The notes under the pieces were generated by a model. It did not search any database. It was not told the DNA's origin and saw only the letters and a list, made by a program, of their open reading frames with translations. From positions 1 to 31,067 of IMG/VR virus record IMGVR_UViG_3300035670_000909: 31,067 nt of DNA. One strand, given 5' to 3'. The stretch is from a virus. Made by a program: the position numbers and the translations under genes. Below, piece by piece: positions 46 to 27,396 of this stretch. Within the stretch, counting starts at the first letter, position 1, and every line of letters starts with the position of its first letter.

Positions 46-1698
46 ATGAAACAATCTATTAAGATTCTAAATAAATTAAGTAACACAGATTTTGTTGCGG
101 CTACCGGTGTGTATAATGTTAGAAATTTACACCATGTAAAATCAAAGGAATTTGAATCTAAGGTTTTGGCATTATTAATACAACATAAATTAATCCCCGC
201 TACTGATCTAAAGGGTTCTGAATTTTCTCAGAAACCGCTTACAGTATGTGGTATTGATAGTGATGGAAAATTATTTGATTCATATCAAAAATTGGTAGAT
301 TTTTATTTACCGGTGGAAAATTTGTATATAGAATGTACAGAGCGTGCTTCCGATGGTAAAGAACATGAAACATATTCAATTACACAAGGATTAACTCATA
401 AGGCGAGAATTAGTGATAAAAATGATACTTTAGGTGTTACACCTGATTATGTTTTGTTTCATGAAAAACCATTATCTCCAACTATTGAACGTAGATTATT
501 GGATAATGGTGTTAAATATATAGTCGGATTACCTGCAATTGATAAATATTTATCTGATATTTCTAAAAAACGAAAAAAAATACAACGTTTAATATTAAAC
601 ATGGGGTATGTTAAGATGATTAAATTTACCGATTTGGTTGATAATGACATTAATCGAAAAATTAATTGGCCACATGTATATAAATTGGTTAACAGTATTC
701 GGACATTACTAAACGGTGGTAAGATTGAAGTTGGTCTAATTAGACCATTTACTGCAATCTATGTTAAGAAAAAATTGATGTTAGTTGATGCACATCATTT
801 AAAAGAAGCTGTTAAAATATTGAAGGATTTTTACAATTACAAAGTAGATTCAGTGCCGGTCATGGTGTTAGGTCACTTAAACAATTTAAGTGCGGATGAG
901 GTTGCTCAATTGATGAGTTCTCTAAACACAATTACATTAAAGTGGGATAATTTTTCATATGTTAATTCTTGGGAAGTTACTTTTTATAAATTAATCGCTC
1001 AATTTACCGCAAAAAAGAATGTAGAAAAGGTTAAGATTTATAAAAATAAACATTATCCATACAAAACCTTACGTGATGATATTTTGGAAGTTGCAGGGCA
1101 TTATGGTGGAAAAAAACCATTAACTGGTGGAGTATCAATATTACCTGCATATGGATTTACAGATTTGGCATCTGTATCAAATTGGGGTAGTAATATGAAT
1201 TTGGTTAAAATAGGAGAGTTATCATATAATGAGCATGAATATATGAAGTATAGAAATCCTATTAAAAATGCTATCATAAATTTAATAACTGCACACTATG
1301 AATCTAGAAAATCACATACAAACTTATTGAAAGTTCATAAAGGTGGACTCTTTATAGTTAATGAGAATGACGATACTAAACGTAAATTCATATTTCCTAA
1401 AATTAGTAGTAAAATATTACAACAATTAGCTACATCATTGAGAGTATTATCGTTTAAAAATGAATCTCTATTTGAAGAAGTGGTTGAATTATTAACTAAG
1501 GAATTTTGGAAGAATACATTTTTACCAGAATTTAAAACACAATCTAATTTCGAGAAAGTGACTAGTAAAAAAATATTATCATTTCCAGATGATGCTAATA
1601 AAATGAAGCTCTTTATAGAAGGAGATGACGAAAACGGAATACGTGGTGGGGTTATTAACTTTATGACAAAACAACTGAAAATAGCCGCAAAGAAATAG
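46..1698 (+). CDS. ParB/Srx-like domain protein
   Basis: This gene encodes 550 residues. Residues about 229-260 read like the N-terminal ParB/sulfiredoxin fold: a strand ending in GLIRPFTAIYV, then LMLVDAHHLKEAV, which resembles the family pattern of a preferred value followed by D/G-x-H-R/H and a helix. Phage members of this superfamily include DNA-binding and nuclease-like proteins, but the ParB arginine motif is not obvious here and no helix-turn-helix was recognised. The N-terminal 200 residues and the C-terminal 200 residues match nothing I know. The start at 46 follows an A/T-rich leader with no Shine-Dalgarno. A hairpin terminator lies 25 bases after the stop, so the gene ends a transcription unit. 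The function is unknown; DNA binding is an inference. Confidence 0.5.
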   Translation: MKQSIKILNKLSNTDFVAATGVYNVRNLHHVKSKEFESKVLALLIQHKLIPATDLKGSEFSQKPLTVCGIDSDGKLFDSYQKLVDFYLPVENLYIECTERASDGKEHETYSITQGLTHKARISDKNDTLGVTPDYVLFHEKPLSPTIERRLLDNGVKYIVGLPAIDKYLSDISKKRKKIQRLILNMGYVKMIKFTDLVDNDINRKINWPHVYKLVNSIRTLLNGGKIEVGLIRPFTAIYVKKKLMLVDAHHLKEAVKILKDFYNYKVDSVPVMVLGHLNNLSADEVAQLMSSLNTITLKWDNFSYVNSWEVTFYKLIAQFTAKKNVEKVKIYKNKHYPYKTLRDDILEVAGHYGGKKPLTGGVSILPAYGFTDLASVSNWGSNMNLVKIGELSYNEHEYMKYRNPIKNAIINLITAHYESRKSHTNLLKVHKGGLFIVNENDDTKRKFIFPKISSKILQQLATSLRVLSFKNESLFEEVVELLTKEFWKNTFLPEFKTQSNFEKVTSKKILSFPDDANKMKLFIEGDDENGIRGGVINFMTKQLKIAAKK

Positions 1699-1723
1699 TA
1701 TATACTGACATAATTTCCGAAAG

Positions 1724-1757
1724 AACCCCATATCATTCATTGGTATGGGGTTTGTTA
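1724..1757 (+). terminator. Rho-independent terminator after ParB-like gene
   Basis: A 9-bp perfect stem, AACCCCATA pairing with TATGGGGTT, encloses an 11-base loop and is followed by a T-rich but interrupted tail (TTGTTATT). It lies between the ParB-like gene and hsp20 and should separate the two transcripts. Confidence 0.7.
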
Positions 1758-1792
1758 TTATAGGAGTAGATTTAAACTAAAAACTAAATATT

Positions 1793-2218
1793 ATGATTAT
1801 GCTAACAACACAATTAACAAAACGTCCATCAATGTTTGATGAGTTCGATTCACTATTTTATGGTTTCCCAAAATTAGATGCATTCCAAAATTGGGATACT
1901 TCACCTTTGTACTCTCAAACTTCATATGCATCGAGAGTGGAAAACGATACGCTAGAGGTTGTTATTTCGGTTATAGGCCACGATCCTAAGAATGTGAATG
2001 TGGAACTAACCGAAGATAAAATCACCGTTAAAGCAAAGAAAAATACCGATGATAAAACGTTGGCTTCTACCTTAATTAAAGATATAGATGATACCTTTAG
2101 ATTGGGTAAAGATTTTAACGGATTGAGTGCCAAAGCTAAAATCGAAAATGGTATATTGAAAATTACGGTTGAGAAGAAAGAAGAATCGAAACCAAAAAAA
2201 TTATCAATATCATTTTGA
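1793..2218 (+). CDS. hsp20: Small heat shock protein, Hsp20/alpha-crystallin family
   Basis: This 141-residue protein is a typical small heat shock protein, an ATP-independent holdase that binds unfolding proteins. A short variable N-terminal arm (1-43) is followed by the alpha-crystallin domain (about 44-130), with the family signature AKIENGILKITV near residues 113-124. A lysine/glutamate-rich tail ends in ISF, resembling the I-x-I/V tail that docks on neighbouring subunits. Hsp20 genes are common in T4-like phages of cyanobacteria and other marine hosts, where they are thought to help virion assembly or protect proteins during infection. The start could be 1793 or the methionine two codons later. 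Terminators flank it on both sides, so it is probably its own transcription unit. No TATTTATA motif precedes it, which suggests a different timing from the virion genes. Confidence 0.93.
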   Translation: MIMLTTQLTKRPSMFDEFDSLFYGFPKLDAFQNWDTSPLYSQTSYASRVENDTLEVVISVIGHDPKNVNVELTEDKITVKAKKNTDDKTLASTLIKDIDDTFRLGKDFNGLSAKAKIENGILKITVEKKEESKPKKLSISF

Positions 2219-2244
2219 TTTGATAAAAAAATGTGTTACAATGT

Positions 2245-2273
2245 AAGGAAGGATGCAAATCCTTCCTTTTTTT
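2245..2273 (+). terminator. Strong Rho-independent terminator after hsp20
   Basis: A 10-bp perfect stem (AAGGAAGGAT with ATCCTTCCTT) closes on a GCAA tetraloop of the GNRA type, and the sequence continues as a run of seven T. This is a textbook intrinsic terminator. Confidence 0.93.
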
Positions 2274-2282
2274 ATTTACGTA

Positions 2283-2290
2283 TATTTATA
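2283..2290 (+). promoter_or_regulatory. TATTTATA motif, candidate late promoter
   Basis: The octamer TATTTATA lies 12 bases before the ATG at 2303 and just after the hsp20 terminator, where a new promoter is needed. The same octamer recurs before six other genes in this window. The promoter role is inferred from recurrence and position. Confidence 0.5.
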
Positions 2291-2302
2291 TAATAAACAC
2301 TT

Positions 2303-2479
2303 ATGGCAAAATTCAGACAAAGAATTCAAGACAATAACGAAGCAATTAAACAAAGATTGCGAATTGTGCTTGATATGATGGGTGGTAATAGACCCGCATC
2401 TAACACAGAAGCAATTCGTTTGCTTAATGAGGTTAAACATTTAATAGATACTAATAACGATTTGTTAGACTTAGGATAA
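2303..2479 (+). CDS. Small conserved-looking protein, 58 aa
   Basis: This short gene starts MAKFRQRIQDNNE and ends NDLLDLG. It is mainly helical by eye and rich in charged residues (for example AIKQRLRIV and AIRLLNEVKHLID), with no membrane segment or cysteine. It begins 12 bases after a TATTTATA motif and its TAA stop at 2477-2479 is followed one base later by the ATG of the membrane protein at 2481, so the pair is probably co-translated. I do not recognise the family. The good start context, tight junction and position directly after a terminator and promoter support it as a real gene. Confidence 0.72.
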   Translation: MAKFRQRIQDNNEAIKQRLRIVLDMMGGNRPASNTEAIRLLNEVKHLIDTNNDLLDLG

Positions 2480-2480
2480 T

Positions 2481-3839
2481 ATGAAATTGAGAACCGTACT
2501 ATTAGGGTTGTCAGCTTTCTTTATCGCTGCGGCTGCAGCGTATTTTTCGGTTACAGGTTTATCTAAGTTATTTGCTGGTGCAACTACTGCTGTTATATTA
2601 ATGGCAAGTTCATTAGAATTTGGAAAGCTGATATCCGCTTCATTTTTATACGTATATTGGGAATCTATAAATAAAGTACTTCGAACCTATTTGTTAATAG
2701 GCGTGTGTGTATTAATAATCATTACATCCGCAGGTATTTATGGATTCCTAACATCCGCCTACCAAACAACAGCCGATCAATTGGATGTTATTAAGAAAAA
2801 GACAGAAGTTGTTGAATTGAAAAAACAACGATTCGAAGAACAGTTATTAGGATATACAACTGAAAGAACTTCTCTTAATCAATCTATTAGTGAACTATCC
2901 AAAGGTATTTCGAACAATGTTATACAATACACCGATGCAAATGGTAATTTGGTAACGACAACATCATCTGCTACTAGAAAAGCATTGGAAAAACAATTAG
3001 ATGATGCGAAACAACAAAGAGATGCAATTTCCTATAAAATAGAATCCCTCTCCGATTCTGTTACCAAATTAGACTTACAAGTAATAGAAATCACTTCCAA
3101 CAATGAGTTAGCAGCAGAAGTTGGACCTCTCAAATATATGGCAGAAATTACTGGTCAACCTATGAGTAGAGTTGTTAACTGGTTTGCTCTTTTAATAATC
3201 TTTGTATTCGACCCTCTTGCAGTAACATTAGTTATTGCTTTTAATACTGCCTTAAAAGTAGATAGAGGTGAATTACCAAAAACAACTTCATCTAAACCAT
3301 ATAAAGTATATGGTGATGCTGTAAATGATGCTGTAAATGATGCTGCAAATGATGGTGAACTAAAAAATAAATGGCGTAAAACGGGCATATTAGATGGTTT
3401 AAAACCAATTGATGCAAACAGACAAGCAGAGTTAGGTAAAGTATTCGAATCCGCTCCTGTACAAAAAATAGAAACAGATGAATCCGATTTTGATGAATTG
3501 GAATCATTTGATACTCCTTCAACCCAATCATTTGAAGATACCATCGCTTCGAACGAAGATACTTATGACACAGGTGAACCCACTCCTGATCCAGAATTAT
3601 CACAATTAACACAAGTTGTGGGTAAATTACCAATTGATTTAAATGAAGATGGTGAAGTTGATGGATGGGATACAAATGGTGATGGGTTGATTGATAAATT
3701 TACATATAAAGGTGCGTTGTTGGAAAATGGCAATGCACTTCCATATTATGCTAAACCAGGCTTTGATTGGAATAATAAAGCAGCTTGGATTAATGACCAA
3801 AACGCTGTTAATTATTGGATAACACATAGAAAAATTTAA
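2481..3839 (+). CDS. Multi-pass membrane coiled-coil protein with EF-hand-like loops
   Basis: This 452-residue protein has hydrophobic spans near 5-26, 30-52, 70-93 and 233-256. Between the third and fourth spans lies a coiled coil (about 100-215) rich in K, E, Q and S. After the last span a long acidic linker holds three near-copies of DAVN/DAAN. Near the C terminus two adjacent calcium-loop patterns appear, DLNEDGEVDGWD (386-397) and DTNGDGLIDKFT (397-408), which match the D-x-N-x-D-G EF-hand/dockerin-type loop. The segment after them ends WITHRKI. It should sit in the host inner membrane. A role in sensing, lysis control or superinfection is possible, but nothing in the sequence settles it. 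The ATG follows the preceding stop by one base (TAATATG). Confidence 0.8.
   Translation: MKLRTVLLGLSAFFIAAAAAYFSVTGLSKLFAGATTAVILMASSLEFGKLISASFLYVYWESINKVLRTYLLIGVCVLIIITSAGIYGFLTSAYQTTADQLDVIKKKTEVVELKKQRFEEQLLGYTTERTSLNQSISELSKGISNNVIQYTDANGNLVTTTSSATRKALEKQLDDAKQQRDAISYKIESLSDSVTKLDLQVIEITSNNELAAEVGPLKYMAEITGQPMSRVVNWFALLIIFVFDPLAVTLVIAFNTALKVDRGELPKTTSSKPYKVYGDAVNDAVNDAANDGELKNKWRKTGILDGLKPIDANRQAELGKVFESAPVQKIETDESDFDELESFDTPSTQSFEDTIASNEDTYDTGEPTPDPELSQLTQVVGKLPIDLNEDGEVDGWDTNGDGLIDKFTYKGALLENGNALPYYAKPGFDWNNKAAWINDQNAVNYWITHRKI
3315..3350 (+). repeat. Three tandem 12-bp in-frame repeats
   Basis: The unit GATGCTGTAAAT occurs twice and is followed by GATGCTGCAAAT, with a partial fourth unit starting GATG. 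It encodes the repeated tetrapeptide D-A-V/A-N in the linker of the membrane protein. Being in frame, changes in copy number would alter linker length without breaking the gene. Confidence 0.9.
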
Positions 3840-3848
3840 ATTAGTTAT

Positions 3849-4418
3849 ATGAAGAAGAAAAAAATACAAGTAATTCCACCCACAAAAAGTTACAGTGCGG
3901 AGGATGAAGTTAAGTTAAAAGATAAATTATCAAAATATTGTGAGAAACATAAACTCTATGCAGTATCCACTCAAACATTGGGGGCACCTTTTAGAGCAGT
4001 TTATATTAATACTCCTGAAACTAAACTATTACTAATTAATCCATATATCAAAACATTAGGAACGGATTTCATAAATTCATCAGAGGTATCCGAATTTGAT
4101 GACAACGGTAAGAAGGTTAGAGTGGTTAAGAGATATACACATGTAGATGTTGAAACCGATAATTTAGGATTGGTACGATTTGAAGGAGATATAAAGGAGA
4201 ATACTGCTGGTTTAAATGAATGTATTCTTGTGCAACAAATGATTGATCTTTTAAATGGTATTACGATACGAGATAAAAATATTAATCAACCGGTTGTGAA
4301 GCGTGTTAATTATGAACGCAATCAATTGGTATTGGCACGCTCTCCAAAGGGAATCGTTGAGCAAGTTAAATACAAACATATACAATCATTTGTTGATAAA
4401 GGGTACACAATACTATAA
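3849..4418 (+). CDS. Peptide deformylase-fold protein lacking the metal site
   Basis: This 189-residue protein follows the order of conserved blocks in peptide deformylase. YAVSTQTLGAPFRAVYIN (37-54) resembles the GLAAPQIG...R...V block, LINPYI (62-67) resembles the INP block, and ECILVQQMIDLLNG (124-137) aligns with the helix that normally carries HEXXH before a DHL-x-G sequence. Here the helix reads Q-M-I-D-L, so both histidines and the glutamate are gone, and the EGCLS cysteine block is replaced by NSSEVSE (76-82). It therefore should not bind the catalytic metal or remove formyl groups. Active deformylases are known auxiliary genes of marine T4-like phages, so this looks like a repurposed or decayed relative. 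It lies 9 bases after the membrane protein gene. The fold call rests on motif order only. Confidence 0.55.
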   Translation: MKKKKIQVIPPTKSYSAEDEVKLKDKLSKYCEKHKLYAVSTQTLGAPFRAVYINTPETKLLLINPYIKTLGTDFINSSEVSEFDDNGKKVRVVKRYTHVDVETDNLGLVRFEGDIKENTAGLNECILVQQMIDLLNGITIRDKNINQPVVKRVNYERNQLVLARSPKGIVEQVKYKHIQSFVDKGYTIL

Positions 4419-10724: not shown

Positions 10725-11690
10725 ATGATTTATTTAATAACAGCCTCAAAGGATGCAACCGTATATGAAATTGATCCAACATTTAATGCTGGCTTAGATG
10801 AAATGCTTCAAGTTTCTAAAGCATATACTAGACTTAGTCAGAGTGATACATCACGTACGTACATTCAATTCAATTTTGATTCATTGCCATCTTATGTAAC
10901 TGCGTCATCTGTAACATTACAAATGTTAACATATGAAAGTGAAGAACTTCCACTGAACTATACTATATATGCATACCCAGTTACAGAAAATTGGGATATG
11001 GGTGTTGGTAATGCAATTGAATCAATTTATACTGATGGTATCACGTGGAATTCACAACCTGCATACGAACCGAATGTAGTTGCAACTCAGTCATTCTCAT
11101 ATTCTAGTGCGGATATTAATATGAATATAATCGAACTTTACAATTATTGGAGTTCTATGAATAATTATGGTATACGTTTATGTCATACTGAATCCATTGA
11201 GAGTTCATCTTATAACTATGGTTATTTAAAGCTATATTCAAAAGAAACCAATACATATAGACAACCATTGGTTAAAATTGCGTGGGATGATCAAATCTAT
11301 AATACTGGATCGTTATCTGCATTACCAGAAGGTGAGGCAGTGGTAAAGACTACAGATTTAAAAGATGTTTATATTGGAGGAAGTTTGGTAAAAATAAATT
11401 TAATTGCTAGAAAAAAACATCCTTTAAAAACGTTTGATGCATCTTATCCATATTTTGATAATAGATATTTACCATCTACCTCGTATTACGCAATAACAGA
11501 CGTTATTACTAAAACAAAATTAGTCGATTTTTCTGAATATACTAAAATAAGTTGTAATGGAAGTCAAAATTATATAGTATTGGATACTACAAATTATCCA
11601 TTAAATAGACCGTTGAAATTATCATTTAAAATAAATAGAGATGGATATGTGGAGTATTATGAAGATGATTTAACATTTATGATTAAATAA
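10725..11690 (+). CDS. DNRLRE-like beta-sandwich surface protein
   Basis: This 321-residue protein begins like a DNRLRE (carbohydrate-binding) domain: KDATVYEIDPTFNAG, LQVSKAY, SRTYIQFNFDSLP, then SVTLQMLTY, and the telling GITWNSQPAYEPNV and the closing RQPLVKIAWD at about residue 185. This fold occurs in cell-surface polysaccharide-binding proteins. The last 120 residues form a second beta-rich domain (KHPLKTFDASYPYFDNRYLP, LKLSFKINRDGYVEYYEDD). It lies directly after gp6 where T4 has gp7, so it may be a wedge-attached receptor-binding or decorating protein that touches host glycans. The binding role is inferred from the domain family. Confidence 0.6.
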   Translation: MIYLITASKDATVYEIDPTFNAGLDEMLQVSKAYTRLSQSDTSRTYIQFNFDSLPSYVTASSVTLQMLTYESEELPLNYTIYAYPVTENWDMGVGNAIESIYTDGITWNSQPAYEPNVVATQSFSYSSADINMNIIELYNYWSSMNNYGIRLCHTESIESSSYNYGYLKLYSKETNTYRQPLVKIAWDDQIYNTGSLSALPEGEAVVKTTDLKDVYIGGSLVKINLIARKKHPLKTFDASYPYFDNRYLPSTSYYAITDVITKTKLVDFSEYTKISCNGSQNYIVLDTTNYPLNRPLKLSFKINRDGYVEYYEDDLTFMIK

Positions 11691-14868: not shown

Positions 14869-17800
14869 ATGGCAGATAAAATAATAAAATATTTTGTAAA
14901 TGACACGTTGGTATTTGATGTTATCGCTGTGCCTTTCAAGGCGAATTCAGATGCAGCAGGAGAAGATTTTCTACCGATAAATGATGTAACAGTAACGCAA
15001 ATAACTGAAAACAGTGCAACTATAAATTGGTCTACTGCTAGAGGTACTACGGCAATTGTTTCATTTTTGGATAATGTATGTCCAATAGATGGCTGTCAAA
15101 TAACCGTTGACGAATATAAAGCGCAACATTCTGTAACTGTTACTGGATTATTACCAAATACTAAATATAAATTTTTTATAAAAGGGCAAACTAAAGGATT
15201 GGTTAATTTTCAATCCATTGAAACATCATTCAATACAATCCGTTCTGTGGTAATACCTACTCCTTCGATAGAACTTCCTAAAATTGTAAATGGATTAGCA
15301 AGTTCTTATACGTGGAATATTGAAAAAGATAACTCTTTTACTATAACATTTAATGTAAATGAAACTACTGATTACGTTAAATATTACTACCCTAATCAAC
15401 CAAATTCGGATGAAAATTATGGTATAAGGGTACAAGTTCCTGCTGATAATAAAAAGGTTACTATTAAATTAGAAAATCCTGGAATAGTTGGTATATATGA
15501 TTTAACTTTAATTCCTGGTAACAATACAATTAAAGACGGCGAAGAGAGAACTGTACAGATAAACGTAGTAAAAGAATTTTATTATGGAGAACCTGATGTA
15601 ACCGAAATCTTTTATAATAAAACTATAAAAGAAGCTGATTTAAAACCGTTAGATTTTTATTTTGATTTCAATATACGTTCTGTTAATTCAGAAGGAATTA
15701 ATGTATATCTAGGAAATGATGTTGCTACACCAATAACTGTATTATCAACCAATGATAATAAGAGTAGTTTAAATTTATATGCAAAAGATTTATATCAATT
15801 ATATAAAGAAAGATTCAACGAAACACAGGATACTTACACTTTAACATTTTCATTTCATCCATTTTTTAATGGAGTAACTGGTAAGATATTTGGTAGACTA
15901 GAACCAATAACTGTTACTGTTACTAAGACAAAATATATTTTAACAAAGAATGAAGTGTTAGACGCACTATCATCTGCATTTAAAGATTTATTTTCAGGAG
16001 ACAGTACTAAAAAGGATTATGAGGATAAGATTATTTTTGAAGATGATAAATATCTTTATTATAGAATAAAATATCAAAATTCACCGTTTGATTCCTTTGT
16101 GATAAATAACATTGCAGAGGATACCATAACATATTCATTAACTGGTTCATCTGATCCTAAAGTTGTTAAAACTGAATTTATTGTAAACCCTATAACGGGT
16201 AATACAGAGAGAAAACAAAAAACTCCATATTCAACTTTAGTTCTTAGATTGTTAGAACCACTTCCTGCGGAGATAGTTGAGAATACACAAGTTTGGATTG
16301 CAAAACAAATAATTCCAACAGTTGTTGAGGATATAGTAATAACAGATGATGATGATAATATTTGTACACCGCTTCGACCAAACTTCTCAATTGATGTATT
16401 GGAAGATTCCGGATATGAATATTTGGAACAGATAGTTGCCAGTGGATCTCTTACATCTGCTAATATCGTAAATAAATATTTAGGTAAAAATGAGTTTTCA
16501 TTAGAAGATTTAAATATTACTTATACAAGCGGAAGTAATGTAACAGGTTCTGAATTTATTGTATTTAAAAACTTTGTAAATTATTCTAGTGCAAAAACTA
16601 GAATTGAGAATTATCAATATAAATTAGAAACTATTGAATTCTGGGAGAATAAAATATTTACAACAACATATTCTGCATCAATTGCTTCAACTTCTTCATT
16701 TGCGATGGCAACTAGCCAATCATATTTGGATAAGATTCAAACATTGAAAAATGGATTTGATGGATTTGAAAAAACTTTATACGATGATTACAGTATAACT
16801 GGATCAAATAATACATTCTTTGAAGTGCAATCATTTTATGCAGAAGAGTATGATAAATATAATAAAAACTATTTAGTAAATCACTTACCTGAATATTTGA
16901 AAGTTGGTGAAATCGGACAAAACAGTGAGGAGTTTTTAGTATTTGTACAAATGATTGGAAACCATTTTGATATAATATGGTCTTATATAAATGGAATTAA
17001 TCGTACAAAGAGAATAACACATACATCCGAAAATGGTATTGCCGACAAATTTTTGCATACGATGTTGGAATCAATGGGATGGGATCCAAAATCACCATTT
17101 AATGGGTTACAACTATGGAAAGAAGCGTTCGGTCTAAATCAGGATGGAAGTACCCCTACAAACAGTAACGTTTTAGGAGTAAACATTCCTTCGACTTATA
17201 CACCGTTTGAAGCTAAAAATGAAGTATGGAGAAGAATTCTTAATAACTTACCATATCTTTTAAAATATAAAGGCACAAGAAGAGCAATAAATGCAATACT
17301 TGCGTGTTATGGCGTACCTGCATCTTTATTAACGGTTGTTGAATTTGGTGGACCTTCACCTAATCCAGAAAACTTATACAAGTTTACATATGAAGATAGA
17401 AGTGCTGCATTGAATCTAAGCACATCTGAATATGTTGCACTGCCATGGTTATCTGGAAGTTACAATCCAAATTCAGTGCAAATAAGATTTGCAACTGATT
17501 ATAAACCTACAACCGCTTCCACTGGATCACAATTGCTTAGAATGATTGGTGGAGGTAGTAATTATTGGAAAATTAATTTAATACCAACTTATACTGGTAG
17601 TTATGGAAATGTTTTATTTGAAATTGGAAACGGTGTAACGACTGGAAGCATATTAATAACTGGTAGTGTATTATTTGATGATTACTACAAAAATATAACA
17701 CTTCAACAAGAAACCGTAACTAGTGCTTCGGTTGATTATGATAGATTTACATTATATGTAAAAGAAGCATTGGATGACAGAATTATAATGAATCAATCTG

Positions 17801-19644: not shown

Positions 19645-20259
19645 ATGGCATATTTAGATAATTCGGAAATTATAGTTGACGCTATTCTTACTAAAAAAGG
19701 TAGAGAGAAGCTGGCAGCTGGTCAAGCATTAAACATTACGCAATTTGCGTTGAGTGATGATGAAATTGATTATCAATTATATGATGCAGCACACCCAAAG
19801 GGTTCTGCATATTACGATTCTGCTATAAAAGCAATTCCAATTTTGGAAGCATCACCGGATGAAACTCAAAATTTGAGATATAAGTTGGTTACCTTACCAA
19901 AAGGTACAACGAGAATACCACAAGTATCCTTGGGTATTACTGAAATTAAAACAAATCAATTACAAGGAAAGGTAACATTAACACCTACAACATCACCTTC
20001 TGGAAACTCAACTTCTGGATATACAGCAGTTCTTACAGATAGAAATGCTGGTACTTTAGTTGGATTGGGTATCGCCGCTAGCGGACAACTTTCAGTTAGT
20101 GATAGTTTGTTAGCAACTGCTGATGTGAAGAGAGGATTATCGTTTGAATTTATACCTAATCCTAATTTAACAAACTCAATTGTTACTACTATAACTGTTT
20201 ATGGTAATGAGACGGGTGGTTCGGTTACTATACCTGTAACTATAAATTATGTAGAATAA
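19645..20259 (+). CDS. Virion structural protein, 204 aa
   Basis: The N-terminal region is distinctive: MAYLDNSEIIVDAILTKKG, then REKLAAGQALNITQFALSDD and EIDYQLYDAAHPKG. I recall this style of N terminus from structural proteins of T4-like phages of marine and Bacteroidetes hosts, but cannot name a function. The second half is beta-rich with S/T/G-rich turns, from about 85 on (QGKVTLTPTT, SIVTTITVYGNETGG, SVTIPVTINYVE). It starts a new transcription unit after a TATTTATA motif and precedes the first member of the shared C-terminal domain family. Confidence 0.72.
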   Translation: MAYLDNSEIIVDAILTKKGREKLAAGQALNITQFALSDDEIDYQLYDAAHPKGSAYYDSAIKAIPILEASPDETQNLRYKLVTLPKGTTRIPQVSLGITEIKTNQLQGKVTLTPTTSPSGNSTSGYTAVLTDRNAGTLVGLGIAASGQLSVSDSLLATADVKRGLSFEFIPNPNLTNSIVTTITVYGNETGGSVTIPVTINYVE

Positions 20260-20283: not shown

Positions 20284-21525
20284 ATGGCAACAATAACTGG
20301 ACAAGCAGGAGCACAACTTACACAAGATTTAGCAGCGTATTTAACAAACAATGCTAATTCATTGGATACAACTGCTATTGCGAATATTATAAATCAAGCT
20401 CTCCCTCCAAATGAAAAATTGGGAAGTATTAGTGGTGGAGTTGTATCACTTGGTATCTATAAAAGATTTGGTGAATTTGATGTAGTAGACAACAAAGTAG
20501 AAGTTGTTACGGAAGGATTGTGGAGTGATGGTTCAGGAAGTTTAACAACTTTCTTTACCGGATCTGTAGCAAGTATTTCCGGACATAGTGGTTCTAATGC
20601 ATCGTTGTATTACCTAAACGTATATCGCGCGGCTAACGCAACGGGATCTGGAGATCCAGTTGAATTTGCAGTTGCATACGGACATAAAGCAGGAAGCGGA
20701 TCAGTGCAGTTAGCTACTTCTGATGCTGCATTGTTACCAACAAAAGCAACGTATTCACAATACAGAATATTATTGAATAATAATTTTGAAGGAGAAGCAG
20801 ATGAATACTTTACATTCTACACTGGATCAACAGAAGATGGATATGACTCAGACGATATATATGTAATAAACTTATCTAGAGCAAGATACAGACAACAAGC
20901 TGATGCGGGTAACTTAACAATATTATTATCAGGATCAAATGGCAAGTTTTCATTTATTGATGATAGTGGAAAGAAATTTTCTGATAAAGAAGGTAAAGCT
21001 GGATCAGTATTTAATATAGTATCCGGCTCAGTAAATTTAGGTACAGAAGCAGCCGCTACTATTGTATCATATACCGCCTCAAACGGAAGAGGATATGGTA
21101 AATTCTATCCTAAATCTGGTATAATTATATTGAACCCAAGTGCACTAGGTGCAACTGTTGGATCAAGTATTACACCTGTAACAACCGCAACTCCAACCGC
21201 TGAAACATACAATCATATTAGATTGTTTAATGCATTAAAACTAGGAGCAGATTTTGAATTGAGAAGAACAGAAATGGTTAACACACAACATTTCTTTGTA
21301 AGAGCAACTAATAGAGAGTTTAACTTTTCTAATAACCCAACATTTGTATCTGGATCAGATGGTTCATTTAGAGAACCTACATTTGAAGAAGATCCAAAAA
21401 CTTATATAACAACTGTTGGATTATATAATGATGCAAATGAATTATTGGCTGTGGCAAAAACTTCACAACCAATTGCAAAATCCTTCGACAAGGAAGTACT
21501 AATAAAAGTTAAACTTGATTTTTAA
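20284..21525 (+). CDS. Virion structural protein with the shared C-terminal domain, 413 aa
   Basis: This protein is glycine- and serine-rich with many SGS/TGS turns (TTFFTGSVASISGHSGSN), consistent with a beta-rich virion protein. The C-terminal portion (about 335-413) has REFNFSNNPTFVSGSDG, then YITTVGLYNDANELLAVAK and a beta ending VLIKVKLDF. The same order, FN-x-S-x-NPT followed by YIT-x-IGLYD-x-x-x-x-LVAVAK and a final strand, closes the next two genes. A shared C-terminal assembly or attachment domain is implied. It is followed by the strongest GC-rich terminator in the window. Confidence 0.75.
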   Translation: MATITGQAGAQLTQDLAAYLTNNANSLDTTAIANIINQALPPNEKLGSISGGVVSLGIYKRFGEFDVVDNKVEVVTEGLWSDGSGSLTTFFTGSVASISGHSGSNASLYYLNVYRAANATGSGDPVEFAVAYGHKAGSGSVQLATSDAALLPTKATYSQYRILLNNNFEGEADEYFTFYTGSTEDGYDSDDIYVINLSRARYRQQADAGNLTILLSGSNGKFSFIDDSGKKFSDKEGKAGSVFNIVSGSVNLGTEAAATIVSYTASNGRGYGKFYPKSGIIILNPSALGATVGSSITPVTTATPTAETYNHIRLFNALKLGADFELRRTEMVNTQHFFVRATNREFNFSNNPTFVSGSDGSFREPTFEEDPKTYITTVGLYNDANELLAVAKTSQPIAKSFDKEVLIKVKLDF

Positions 21526-21569
21526 GCTTTAAATTTTAACACTTAAACGTAAGGTTAAAACTTAAACCG

Positions 21570-21596
21570 ACCCCGCCCCGTAAGGCGGGGTTTTTT
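21570..21596 (+). terminator. GC-rich Rho-independent terminator
   Basis: The stem CCCCGCC pairs with GGCGGGG around the loop CCGTAA, with one more A-T pair at the base, and is followed by TTTTTT. It stands out as a GC-rich island in AT-rich sequence and lies 10 bases before the next TATTTATA motif. Confidence 0.92.
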
Positions 21597-21605
21597 ATTA
21601 AAGAA

Positions 21606-21613
21606 TATTTATA
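21606..21613 (+). promoter_or_regulatory. TATTTATA motif, candidate late promoter with minimal leader
   Basis: The octamer ends 5 bases before the ATG at 21619, directly after a strong terminator. A new promoter is required here to express the following genes, which makes this one of the better supported sites. Confidence 0.55.
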
Positions 21614-21618
21614 GGTGT

Positions 21619-23064
21619 ATGTTCAAAGCAATCCCATCTTCTGATATATCGATTAGACCGTTTAAAGCGTATAAAAACTATACGTTTGATGAATCTACTT
21701 TACCAATACATCCTGTAAGAAATTTAACTGGTTCATATGATAGTAACATATCTAATGTGTTGAATATAAATGGTATAGATGTGAGTGAGTTCACATTGAA
21801 CAAATCTATACGTTCATTATATTACAACCGTTCTCCTAAAGAAATAGGAGTAGTTGTCAATTGGGATGTTAGAAAACATGCTTCTAAAAAGATATATAAA
21901 TATGAGGTTCATATTAATGGAAAGGGTGGTAGTACAATTTATAATTATTATTTTGATTCATATGCAAATGAATGGGTAGATGAATTTTCTCAATTTTTAA
22001 ATGAAAATGGATACTATGTAAATAGTAATGGGTTAATATTGGTTAGAAATTTTTCGGATATAACCACTCTATTAGGAGAAATGAAAAATGTTGGTTCTAC
22101 ACAAGAACGGTTTATAGGTGATAGATTTTTAATGTGGAGTATTCCTAGAAACTATATAGGAGAACGAATTAAACCAACATCATTTATTATTTCTGATTAT
22201 GGATATACTAAAAAATCCATGTCTAACAAAGACAAAAGTCTTAAAATTGTCGATGATGGGCATGGTAATCTAATAGAAAGTGAAAGAGAATATTTGGGTA
22301 TAGTTGGTGTAGATTTTAATGAAGATACTAATTATTGTTTAATAAAATCAAATGATGGTGAACTATATAATACAACTGTAATAAATTTTGATTTCGGAGA
22401 AGAAACTGCTGGGATAGAAGAAATAAATTTAACATATGAAACTTATAATGATATACAAATAGATGTTGATCAATTTGATGCTCGTAGTGAATACGCCATA
22501 TCTATTTCAAATATGATTTTACCATATCATATACACAATTCGCCAAAAGTTTTGGGAAATATATTTTATTCAAATGGTATAATAACATTGACACATGCCG
22601 TTTCTATAAATGAAGATTGTGGGTGTGGTGATGACAATGCGTTTTTTGGTGGGGAAGGATATGTTATTAATTATAAATCAACGAAAACTATATATGAAAA
22701 TGAAATATTTTTGAATATTCTACCAACCGATTTTAATGTATCAACGAATCCAACTGCAACGACTTGGAATGAGGGAGCATATTATGTTAATAGATATATT
22801 GATATTGATTCTACGGATGGTAGTGATATATTAGATTTAGATTTTAGAATTGTTTCATCATACGATGGTGTTACAAAAATGGGATTTGGTGAATATGAGA
22901 ATAGAACAGAATCCGACCCAACTGGTAGTTACCTAGCTCCATATATAACTTCAATTGGATTGTATGATGATGAATATAATTTAGTAGCCGTAGCAAAAGT
23001 TCCAGCAAAACAAAAAAAGTTACCAGATTACCCTATAAACTTTATAGTTAGGTTTGATACCTAA
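21619..23064 (+). CDS. Virion structural protein, paralogue with an extra central segment, 481 aa
   Basis: This 481-residue protein and the next gene product are paralogues along most of their lengths. Both begin MFK-x-I-x-x-SDISIRPFK-x-YK, contain ERFIGDRF or ERYIGDRF, share the segment KSTKTIYENE, and end with DPTGSYLAPYIT, IGLYD, LVAVAKVP and PINFIVRFDT. This copy has about 85 extra residues after DDGHGNL (coding near 22250-22545), and a cysteine pair CGCGD at C334 and C336 that the shorter copy lacks. The proteins are probably fibre or baseplate decoration components. The ATG follows a TATTTATA motif by 5 bases. Confidence 0.75.
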   Translation: MFKAIPSSDISIRPFKAYKNYTFDESTLPIHPVRNLTGSYDSNISNVLNINGIDVSEFTLNKSIRSLYYNRSPKEIGVVVNWDVRKHASKKIYKYEVHINGKGGSTIYNYYFDSYANEWVDEFSQFLNENGYYVNSNGLILVRNFSDITTLLGEMKNVGSTQERFIGDRFLMWSIPRNYIGERIKPTSFIISDYGYTKKSMSNKDKSLKIVDDGHGNLIESEREYLGIVGVDFNEDTNYCLIKSNDGELYNTTVINFDFGEETAGIEEINLTYETYNDIQIDVDQFDARSEYAISISNMILPYHIHNSPKVLGNIFYSNGIITLTHAVSINEDCGCGDDNAFFGGEGYVINYKSTKTIYENEIFLNILPTDFNVSTNPTATTWNEGAYYVNRYIDIDSTDGSDILDLDFRIVSSYDGVTKMGFGEYENRTESDPTGSYLAPYITSIGLYDDEYNLVAVAKVPAKQKKLPDYPINFIVRFDT

Positions 23065-23079
23065 TATCAACAATTAGAA

Positions 23080-23087
23080 TATATATA
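23080..23087 (+). promoter_or_regulatory. Variant promoter-like motif TATATATA
   Basis: The sequence GAATATATATATCTGTATG here lines up base for base with GAATATTTATAGGTGTATG before the paralogue at 21619. The match suggests the regulatory region was copied with the gene. The octamer ends 5 bases before the ATG at 23093. Confidence 0.4.
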
Positions 23088-23092
23088 TCTGT

Positions 23093-24277
23093 ATGTTTAA
23101 GCCTATTCGTAAATCAGACATTAGTATCAGACCTTTCAAGGTTTATAAATCTTGGGAATTTGATTCTGGATCTATTTCTATTAATGTTATAAGAAATTTA
23201 AGTGGTAGTTTCGAAAATTTTGAAACAACATTTGTTACAGGTAGTAACTATTCTTTCAATGAATATGCATTAAATAAATCCATACGATCACTATATTACA
23301 GAAATGTTCCTAGATTAATTGGTAGTGTTACCAACTGGGATTATTATAAGCATTCTGCAAAAAAACAATATTCGTATTTGGTGACGAGTAGTAACGGATT
23401 GGTAGAATATAAATATTATTACGATAACTCATCTAAATCGTATATCAATGATTTTCAAACTTTTTTGGATACGAATAAATATACTGTCAATTCATCCGGA
23501 GAAATTATTGCTGGATCATATATGGATGTTACCAAAATATATGGGATGGTAAAAAACTTTGGTTCAACTGAGGAACGCTATATTGGTGATAGATTTTTTT
23601 TATTAGGCGTACCACAAAAATATATTGGTGAAGGTATTAAACCCGGATCAGTAATACTTACTGACTATTTTACAACATCTAGTTTTATTGATGATGGGTA
23701 TGGTAACATGGTAAATTCCGTTGATACATCTTCCATAGTTGGAAATGTATTTTATGGACATGGAATTGTTACTATAACAAAGAATACAGAATTGCCTTCT
23801 GATGTATATTATAATTTAGGAACTAAGAACTTTTCGTTGCAGATCAAATCAACTAAAACGATATATGAGAATGAAGTATTCATTCAAGTATCTCCATCCG
23901 AATTTAATATATCAACAAATCCAACTTCAATTACATATTATAATGGATACTCATACGTAAATAGTTTAATACAAGTTGATGCAAGTGGATCAGGAAATCA
24001 AAGTAAAACACTTGATTTCAGATATCGTTCATCTCATTTGTTTACATATCCTACTGTATACGGACCGGCTGGAACAGCAGTAACTAGATCTATTGGATTT
24101 AGTGATTATGAATATAGTTCATCAATTGACCCAACTGGCAGTTATCTGGCACCGTACATTACCACTATTGGGTTATATGATACCGAATATAATTTGGTTG
24201 CAGTTGCTAAAGTTCCAATGAAACCTAAGAGTATTCCCGATTACCCTATAAATTTTATAGTTAGATTTGATACTTAA
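23093..24277 (+). CDS. Virion structural protein, shorter paralogue of the 21619 product, 394 aa
   Basis: This protein starts MFKPIRKSDISIRPFKVYKS and shares with its neighbour ALNKSIRSLYYRNVP, STEERYIGDRFFLLGVPQKY, KSTKTIYENEVF and FNISTNPT. It ends with DPTGSYLAPYITTIGLYD, then LVAVAKVP and PINFIVRFDT. It lacks the roughly 85-residue central segment and the CGCGD motif of the longer copy and instead runs from DDGYGNM straight into VGNVFYGHGIVTIT. The two genes lie head to tail 28 bases apart, which points to tandem duplication followed by divergence. A likely role is a variable virion surface protein. Confidence 0.75.
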   Translation: MFKPIRKSDISIRPFKVYKSWEFDSGSISINVIRNLSGSFENFETTFVTGSNYSFNEYALNKSIRSLYYRNVPRLIGSVTNWDYYKHSAKKQYSYLVTSSNGLVEYKYYYDNSSKSYINDFQTFLDTNKYTVNSSGEIIAGSYMDVTKIYGMVKNFGSTEERYIGDRFFLLGVPQKYIGEGIKPGSVILTDYFTTSSFIDDGYGNMVNSVDTSSIVGNVFYGHGIVTITKNTELPSDVYYNLGTKNFSLQIKSTKTIYENEVFIQVSPSEFNISTNPTSITYYNGYSYVNSLIQVDASGSGNQSKTLDFRYRSSHLFTYPTVYGPAGTAVTRSIGFSDYEYSSSIDPTGSYLAPYITTIGLYDTEYNLVAVAKVPMKPKSIPDYPINFIVRFDT

Positions 24278-24666: not shown

Positions 24667-25080
24667 ATGTGGTTATATAAGGAAAGCATCATTGATGATA
24701 TACAACAATTTCCAGAAGGTATATTTGGGTTTGTGTATAGAATTCATCACCTACCAACTAATAAATTTTATATTGGTAGAAAACAGTTAATATCGAATAA
24801 AACATTACCACCACTTAAGGGTAAAAAACGAAAACGTAAGACTCAAAAGGAGAGTAATTGGAAAACATATTACAGTTCACATCCAGAAATTAATAATATA
24901 GTTGCAGAAGGTAGGGAGGATGAATTTGTTAGAGAAATTTTAGAATTTGCATTTTCTCCGAAACATTTGACATATTTGGAAACGAGATATTTATTCTCAG
25001 AAAGAGTATTGGAAAACAGTGATAAATATTGGAATGACAATATACTTGGCAAATTCTTTAGAAAAGATGTTTTAAAATAA
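24667..25080 (+). CDS. GIY-YIG nuclease-like protein
   Basis: This 137-residue protein shows the two tyrosine blocks of GIY-YIG nucleases, GFVYRIHH (21-28) and FYIGRKQL (34-41), followed by a very basic loop KGKKRKRK, then the segment KESNWKTYYSS, and YLETRYLF (103-110) with the likely catalytic glutamate E105. These enzymes cut DNA with one metal ion; phage relatives include Seg-type free-standing homing endonucleases, while others act as ordinary phage genes. The first tyrosine block reads FVY, not GIY, a common substitution. No intron or recognition site can be identified. The placement among virion genes is typical of a mobile endonuclease, but a fixed phage function is equally possible. 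Confidence 0.65.
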   Translation: MWLYKESIIDDIQQFPEGIFGFVYRIHHLPTNKFYIGRKQLISNKTLPPLKGKKRKRKTQKESNWKTYYSSHPEINNIVAEGREDEFVREILEFAFSPKHLTYLETRYLFSERVLENSDKYWNDNILGKFFRKDVLK

Positions 25081-26004: not shown

Positions 26005-27396
26005 ATGGCAAAAATTGTTGACCCAGATGAATTAACCCAAGGTATAGAGATTCAATTTATAACCGGCTCAAATCCTAAAAAAATTAAATTTTTTGAAGCG
26101 GGTAATTTTACACAAAGCGCAGGTGTATCCATGCAAACACTTTACTCTTTTTGTAAAGAAGAGTGGAAGAACGATTCAAATCTAATTAAGTTCCCGTTCC
26201 CGATGATTTCAATTACATCGGAACAGTTTGAATTTATTAGTGATTGGGATTTAAGTGGAAGTTTTGAAAAAAATGCTATTAGAGATGGTGGATGGGCACG
26301 AAGAAGTGGATCGGGTGTAGTGTTGGAAGAATGGATGAACGTTACCACACTTGGTGCATTCGTAACAGGATCTGACCAAGCATATTATCAACAATCTGCA
26401 TCTGCCGCTCCGGTTAACTTTACATTCCCTGGAGAAGTAAATGCGGGTGTACAACTTTATGAATCAGGTGCATATGATTATAGAGATTATTATAAGATTT
26501 TCCTTCGTGAGCAAGGTAAAACATATGACTCATATGACTTACCTACTGAACAGAACATTCCTTTCTTAACATATCGTAAGTATGCGATGCCGTTGGCAAA
26601 CAGTAATGATTTGAAAATTGCAGTTGCGGATATTGGCATTGATGCAAACTCTGATAATGTTGCAGATGTTGCTCCATATTCTGGTATGAGTATAACATAC
26701 TTTACCACATCACAACTTAGAACAATTGGTGGTAACCCATATTATTTCAACGTAATTATTGATGGTAATCAGGGTACTGCTGAACAAATTTATGAATTTG
26801 TACAATGGTCATTACGTAGACCTACTGATATTGCGACTGGCGCGGAGGTTGTTAGAGGTGATACTGCGGATGAATTGCTTATCTTCATTGGTAACACATT
26901 AAGAACCTTAAAAACTGATTCATGGGGGCCTACATATATTGATGATTTCCAGACCGTTGATACAAACCGATTGGAATTTACATCTGGATCAAGTATTATT
27001 ACATTCCCATTCGTTGCTGCTGGTAACTTGGTGTTTAACGATAACTTACAGAACGATGCTGATGCAAGATACTTTGTATTCTTTACAAATGATGATGCAG
27101 GTGATAACACTGGCAGAGATTTTGGTACGCAAGATGCAATCATTATAAATGATAATAATGGCTTCCCTATAACAGGAAGTGTAGCAACTTCTGCTTCATT
27201 AGGATTTGACTATGATTATGATAACAATATCCAAAGAGGAACAGATTCATCTGGATCAAACGTACCATATACGGCGGTTGCATTAGGATTGAGTACTGCT
27301 CAATATGTGGTAACTGTGGGAACACTTACTAGAAGTACTTCTAACATTATAAGCTTTGTGGCTGCGTTGGAAAGAAATTATAGTAACCCTATATAA
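26005..27396 (+). CDS. Virion structural protein, 463 aa
   Basis: The protein has aromatic-rich beta segments and many G/S/T/N turns. It begins MAKIVDPDELTQGIEIQF, has KFPFPMISITSEQFEF, RDYYKIFLREQGKTY, FFTNDDAGDNTGRDFGTQDA and ends in ALERNYSNPI. A stretch EQIYEFVQWSLRRPTDI suggests a central helical piece. I recall similar proteins as common in uncultured marine phages but cannot assign a role. The typical tail-sheath landmarks (N-terminal strand extensions and a C-terminal handshake region) were looked for and not recognised. Fibre, baseplate or decoration protein are all open. Confidence 0.7.
   Translation: MAKIVDPDELTQGIEIQFITGSNPKKIKFFEAGNFTQSAGVSMQTLYSFCKEEWKNDSNLIKFPFPMISITSEQFEFISDWDLSGSFEKNAIRDGGWARRSGSGVVLEEWMNVTTLGAFVTGSDQAYYQQSASAAPVNFTFPGEVNAGVQLYESGAYDYRDYYKIFLREQGKTYDSYDLPTEQNIPFLTYRKYAMPLANSNDLKIAVADIGIDANSDNVADVAPYSGMSITYFTTSQLRTIGGNPYYFNVIIDGNQGTAEQIYEFVQWSLRRPTDIATGAEVVRGDTADELLIFIGNTLRTLKTDSWGPTYIDDFQTVDTNRLEFTSGSSIITFPFVAAGNLVFNDNLQNDADARYFVFFTNDDAGDNTGRDFGTQDAIIINDNNGFPITGSVATSASLGFDYDYDNNIQRGTDSSGSNVPYTAVALGLSTAQYVVTVGTLTRSTSNIISFVAALERNYSNPI

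Follow-up and report, generated by a model that had tools for sequence, protein, structure and literature searches.

In phage T4, consecutive genes that follow the baseplate wedge genes encode gp9-gp12, which are peripheral baseplate proteins. These proteins have been proposed to be structurally related to each other. The tail spikes of the Ackermannviridae are anchored through their N-terminal parts. PMC8432352 describes such spikes as co-located tail proteins that have common anchoring parts and swappable receptor modules. Fibres of the P2, CTX and R-pyocin type, with an N-terminal DUF3751/PF12571 domain, likewise join a conserved fixing module to an exchangeable receptor-binding part, and in P2-type fibres this collar-fibre domain is thought to mediate contact with the baseplate (PMC6363177).

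Far-T4-type phages, a clade with RM378 as its named reference, are widespread in fresh and sea water, and T4 virus-host interaction genes were not detected in them (PMC4360716). We analysed a 31,067-base viral record from IMG/VR (hereafter the window), a fragment of a large bacterial virus, which carries a gene cluster of this phage group. Following gene X (19645..20259, 204 aa), the plus strand encodes A (20284..21525, 413 aa), the conserved member of a protein family, and then the variable members B1 (21619..23064, 481 aa) and B2 (23093..24277, 394 aa), which form a tandem pair. To our knowledge, no host-recognition proteins are known for Far-T4-type phages, and a three-gene cluster in which one gene, B, has its middle swapped between near-identical phages is a candidate for this function.

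The initial annotation held that the products of A, B1 and B2 end in a common domain, a claim that motifs and profiles both bear out. The motif FN.S.NPT is present at residue 346 of A, 372 of B1 and 271 of B2, and YIT[TS][IV]GLY[ND] at residues 374, 442 and 355, respectively; neither occurs in any other ORF of the window. A model of the C-terminal module made from 33 relatives, with the window's own three sequences among its building rows, matches the window at exactly three places with E-values of 2e-34 or better, and hence nowhere in the rest of it. These plus-strand matches are at the ends of A (residues 319-413, 21238..21522, E 2.4e-39), B1 (22654..23061, E 1.8e-34) and B2 (23819..24274, E 4.9e-35). 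When individual sequences are compared, the last 95 residues of A reach Smith-Waterman scores of 73 against B1 and 64 against B2, for which the maxima among 1000 shuffles are 55 and 60, and BLASTP of A against B1 and B2 gives E-values of 5e-5 and 4e-4 (single comparisons). At the level of sequence, the single-sequence evidence for the kinship of A with B1 and B2 is modest, whereas the profile evidence is decisive.

This kinship extends beyond the C-terminal domain that had been described. Profile-profile alignment with hhalign joins the back of A to the back of B at 99.6% probability (E 1.6e-24; reversed control, 0.2%), and a separate upstream block that in A reads 'IYVINLSRARYRQQADAGNLTILL...FIDDS' is also alike (A189-228 versus B2 165-202, 88%, E 3e-6). 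Reversed and column-shuffled controls for the A-B comparisons give probabilities of 0.4% or less, and those for the upstream block stay at 0.3% or below. A GxxFYxxGII segment likewise matches between the two proteins. With front and back aligned separately and with controls, the region of A that is homologous to B covers residues 189-413 (20848..21522, plus strand), and the common region amounts to approximately 230 residues interrupted by a variable insert. Because it reaches past the C-terminal domain, A, B1 and B2 constitute one superfamily rather than three unrelated fronts with one anchor. AlphaFold2 models, whose input rows came only from viral-contig loci, point the same way, since BFVD searches with those of A (pLDDT 67.7) and B2 (pLDDT 76.5) have the same nine viral proteins at the top (E <1e-3); TM-scores to these proteins are low (0.12-0.57), whole-model confidence is moderate, and the last 100 residues of both models rank among the least certain. 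Compared with PDB structures, the models reached no Z-score above 3.5; most entries were unrelated proteins of immunoglobulin-like or spike type, and a fragment of T4 gp6 among unrelated entries had only Z 2.9. Searching PDB sequences with profiles of A and B produced no credible match, and Pfam and PHROGs gave only weak or chance matches to the window's A, B1, B2 and X. A and B have no detectable sequence similarity to any T4 protein, in contrast to their T4-like placement after wedge genes. X was also compared with A and B, and homology to either was rejected.

B1 and B2 had been regarded as paralogues throughout. They are indeed paralogues (44% and 49% identity in two blocks), but not over their whole length: pairwise alignment yields approximately 57% identity at the N-terminal end, 35-55% in the middle and 78% over the last 60 residues, and B1 contains an insertion of about 85 residues (22282..22539, plus strand) that is absent from B2. 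This insertion, seen in both pairwise and family alignments, coincides with the site at which other B proteins carry a laminin-G insertion. Of the first 93 loci arranged, only the window has a tandem B-B pair (three further entries are pieces of it).

Scans of viral contigs yielded hundreds of relatives, including full-length homologues of A with 54-74% identity in at least 80 contigs. The named relatives are Rhodothermus phage RM378, Flavobacterium phage immuto, Microcystis phage Mel-JY01 and LR756508, an uncultured phage of 484 kb. X always lies directly upstream of A in relatives, and more than 100 contigs have the order X-A-B following baseplate wedge genes, among them 83 of the first 93 loci and most of those added later. 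Judged by gene content and order, this arrangement is a signature of RM378/immuto/Mel-JY01 ('Far-T4'-type) phages, and the window, a 31-kb fragment in which no capsid gene was recognised, conforms to it as X-A-B1-B2. Direct homologues in the same order are provided by RM378 p128, immuto gp106 and gp105, and proteins of Mel-JY01, all of which are annotated only as 'hypothetical protein' in their records; those of A comprise immuto gp106, RM378 p128 and proteins of Mel-JY01 and LR756508, and immuto gp105 corresponds to B. Variations on the order also exist. Mel-JY01 has four A-type genes and one B (X-A-A-A-A-B), two of the A proteins being extended at their N-termini to 718 and 954 aa, and RM378 has a single A flanked by two X-type genes (X-A-X). 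In locus L162, a 1082-aa gene at 616-3864 lies between A and B; its product has adhesin-type repeats (MBG_3 and YDG) and weakly matches B.

The module is largely a property of this cluster. Of ten related phages with whole genomes, eight have it twice and Mel-JY01 five times, and in nine of the ten records it is restricted to X-A-B. The exception is RM378, whose single strong copy is joined by a weak match (E 0.0017) in an ORF that is not part of the cluster. The weak match sits in the 661-aa protein p119 (NC_004735, 108935-110920), which may be the missing B of RM378. No other protein of the fetched loci was found to contain the module. Bacterial assemblies have it on seven contigs, mostly short, and the presence of X and A on all seven and of a B-type gene on most suggests that these are phage contigs in metagenome bins.

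Family-wide comparison separates A from B. Mean pairwise identity of A in blocks of 20 residues is 0.40-0.74 over residues 1-320 and 0.69-0.89 over residues 321-413, whereas B is conserved in its first 20 residues and at its C-terminus and variable between them. However far A has diverged, B has clearly diverged further, most strongly in its front. We found no close relatives in the window's own clade, and finer comparison draws on 22 close relatives (L179-L201) from a related clade; some are near-identical contigs, probably from the same sites, and so the set does not represent 22 independent events. Within it, A retains 91-98% amino acid identity and 0.78-0.91 identity at four-fold sites. 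B retains 95-100% amino acid identity over alignment columns 1-40 and 92-98% over the last 66, whereas between the most different types its middle falls to 46-52%, with four-fold sites near saturation at 0.47-0.57. Six types of B middle can be distinguished, and these do not track A, whose identity between types is as high as 0.978. A DNA scan of L140 against L146 gives the same picture, with flanks mostly at 0.87-0.97, the B middle dropping to 0.39 and the 3' part of B at 0.85. Four-fold identity at the B C-terminus (0.46-0.73) is lower than in A, indicating that recent exchange alone does not explain the conservation of this end, which is owed largely to selection.

B of this related clade thus has a hypervariable part between conserved parts, and this variability of the middle is the pattern that would be expected of a host-recognising tail part. 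It is also what allelic replacement of the middle predicts, because silent sites would not become saturated if a conserved gene were undergoing rapid point mutation, and B looks to have been exchanged between close relatives. A diversity-generating retroelement is a poor fit as the cause, given a variable stretch of more than 300 aligned positions with length changes. The initial annotation had pictured a common attachment domain with variable fronts, making the proteins interchangeable virion surface parts. One common C-terminal module and a strikingly diverse B remain of that picture; the variable fronts do not hold for A, which is conserved along its full length among relatives, and variation in B lies in the middle, since its first 20-40 residues do not vary either. 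Nor is the homology confined to the C-terminal domain.

Some B middles contain recognisable domains of lectin-like or propeller-like kind. Laminin-G is found in those of L001-L005 and Mel-JY01 (E down to 1.4e-14), and FG-GAP_2 in B versions of 766-1368 aa (E 1e-13 to 1e-22), often together with dockerin-like calcium sites.

The module also resembles the collar-fibre attachment domain. Its C-terminal motif matches the second half of PF12571 weakly but consistently, and the IGL[FY]D...LxAVAK motif of P2/CTX/R-pyocin-type fibres falls in the same register. In six of the ten whole relatives, the only PF12571 match is the IGLYD segment of the module (profile positions approximately 87-113); the best score is 15.2 bits in whole genomes and 12-13 bits per protein, short of the curated cut-off of 23 bits. 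The IGL[FY]D / AVAK segment is matched by 17 of 53 B members at E-values up to 0.1. Several tail-fibre PHROGs match in this register too, and all of these matches span only about 25 residues and are weak or below curated cut-offs. In the classical fibres the domain is N-terminal, whereas the module is C-terminal in all proteins checked and in B is preceded by the variable part, and here the domain can be recognised only in its second half, below cut-off. If the resemblance reflects a common function, the anchor would lie at the C-terminus, whereas classical collar fibres have theirs at the N-terminus. A relative of X (L027, residues 12-48) weakly matches positions 7-45 of phrog_1780, 'tail collar fiber protein' (E 0.022). 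A quite improbable idea is that the collar-fibre domain has been split, with X supplying the first half (phrog_1780 7-45) and the C-termini of A and B the second (88-113), the halves being joined between chains. Such a split would create a modular socket for any protein ending in the module, with A as its constant user and B as the exchangeable one.

We consider it somewhat probable that A, B1 and B2 form a family of tail-tip proteins in which A is a conserved subunit and B an end-anchored adhesin cassette, duplicated in the window. They would be located at the baseplate periphery of a Far-T4-type contractile-tailed phage, with the C-terminal module fixing each protein to the baseplate in the manner proposed for the collar-fibre domain of P2-type fibres. 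A would be a structural subunit of every virion of the group, and B a host-contacting adhesin whose conserved ends dock it and whose middle is exposed; duplication into B1 and B2 would place two different adhesins on the same socket. Gene position points to the baseplate, the weak collar-fibre match to anchoring, and the variability of B to an adhesin. Among the hits examined, papers naming these phages yielded no virion proteomics, and the genes at 26005 and 27839 of the window, or immuto gp104, gp103 and gp101, may be the main fibres instead. The Ackermannviridae spikes are a further parallel, with no sequence relation seen to A or B and with A not being variable. If B is an adhesin, its middle could serve as a marker for host prediction from metagenomes.

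An unlikely though credible alternative is that all three proteins are ordinary structural subunits of the wedge or periphery, and that B varies through drift in exposed loops. Strict synteny directly after the wedge genes would suit such subunits, as would the fact that B is about twice as diverged as A at every distance, and no receptor-binding fold was recognised in the window's own B1 and B2 by Pfam, PHROG or structure comparison. Drift does not readily account, however, for block-like replacement with near-saturated synonymous sites in the B middle and not in the flanking A, or for the laminin-G and FG-GAP insertions. It is fairly unlikely that the module is a folding, trimerisation or chaperone-like tail rather than an anchor. 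Intramolecular chaperones and trimerisation caps are often C-terminal, and the module keeps this position throughout the variants, even in proteins of 718-1368 aa that differ in their other domains. On the other hand, its motif weakly matches the attachment domain of tail fibres, it is present equally in A, which is without long adhesive domains, and a cursory look revealed no cleavage or trimer signatures.

Exchange of B could also be driven by co-conversion with a neighbouring homing endonuclease. A GIY-YIG gene of the SegE-like type lies downstream of B2 in the window (24667-25080, PF19835, E 8e-29), and in 57 of 100 loci such a gene follows B at a distance of no more than 2.5 kb. Six relatives of the clade with swapped middles (L127, L129, L130, L137, L146 and L147) are without this gene within 2.5 kb, and the endonuclease is thus not required there. 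We regard this explanation as highly improbable. The 'NAD synthetase' label that the SegE-like family bears in PHROG 447 and in the immuto record is probably a misannotation.

The tail-tip reading agrees with the genes upstream of X-A-B on the same strand, which encode gp25 (GPW_gp25, E 1.8e-17; PHROG baseplate wedge, E 6e-21) and a gp6-type wedge protein (E 6e-20). Directly 3' of the gp6-type gene is a gene for a protein with a CBM96 carbohydrate-binding module (10725-11690, E 2.6e-9). A 1567-aa protein of FN3/laminin-G type, encoded at 14869, also lies between the wedge genes and X-A-B; a gpI-type motif suspected in it by eye was not confirmed.

Within the cluster, A and B1 are separated by a predicted intrinsic terminator (21569..21592, plus strand) with a 9-pair stem and a T-run. 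Comparable hairpins with differing stem sequences are present in 75 of 109 distinct A-B gaps of relatives, and none were found in 125 gaps between X and A, in 830 control windows taken within A or in 107 stretches that follow B. The terminator is followed by TATTTATA (21606..21613, plus strand), a promoter-like element that is kept before B in relatives, lying no more than 46 nt upstream in 69 of 83 (A-B gaps longer than 60 nt only). The same element precedes X, and in the window it occurs at 2283, 5409, 7762, 19612, 21606, 25416 and 29849. In the window and loci L013-L092, 175 of 364 occurrences are found on the coding strand 15-45 nt upstream of an ORF start; no such concentration is seen for its reverse complement (12 of 115). 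TATTTATA is the complement of the T4 late promoter core TATAAATA, and we regard it as a candidate promoter element of this phage group. With a terminator between A and B and the element before both X and B, X-A and B look like separate transcription units. Elsewhere in the window, near the phage structural region, positions 1793-2218 encode a small heat-shock protein of the Hsp20/alpha-crystallin family.
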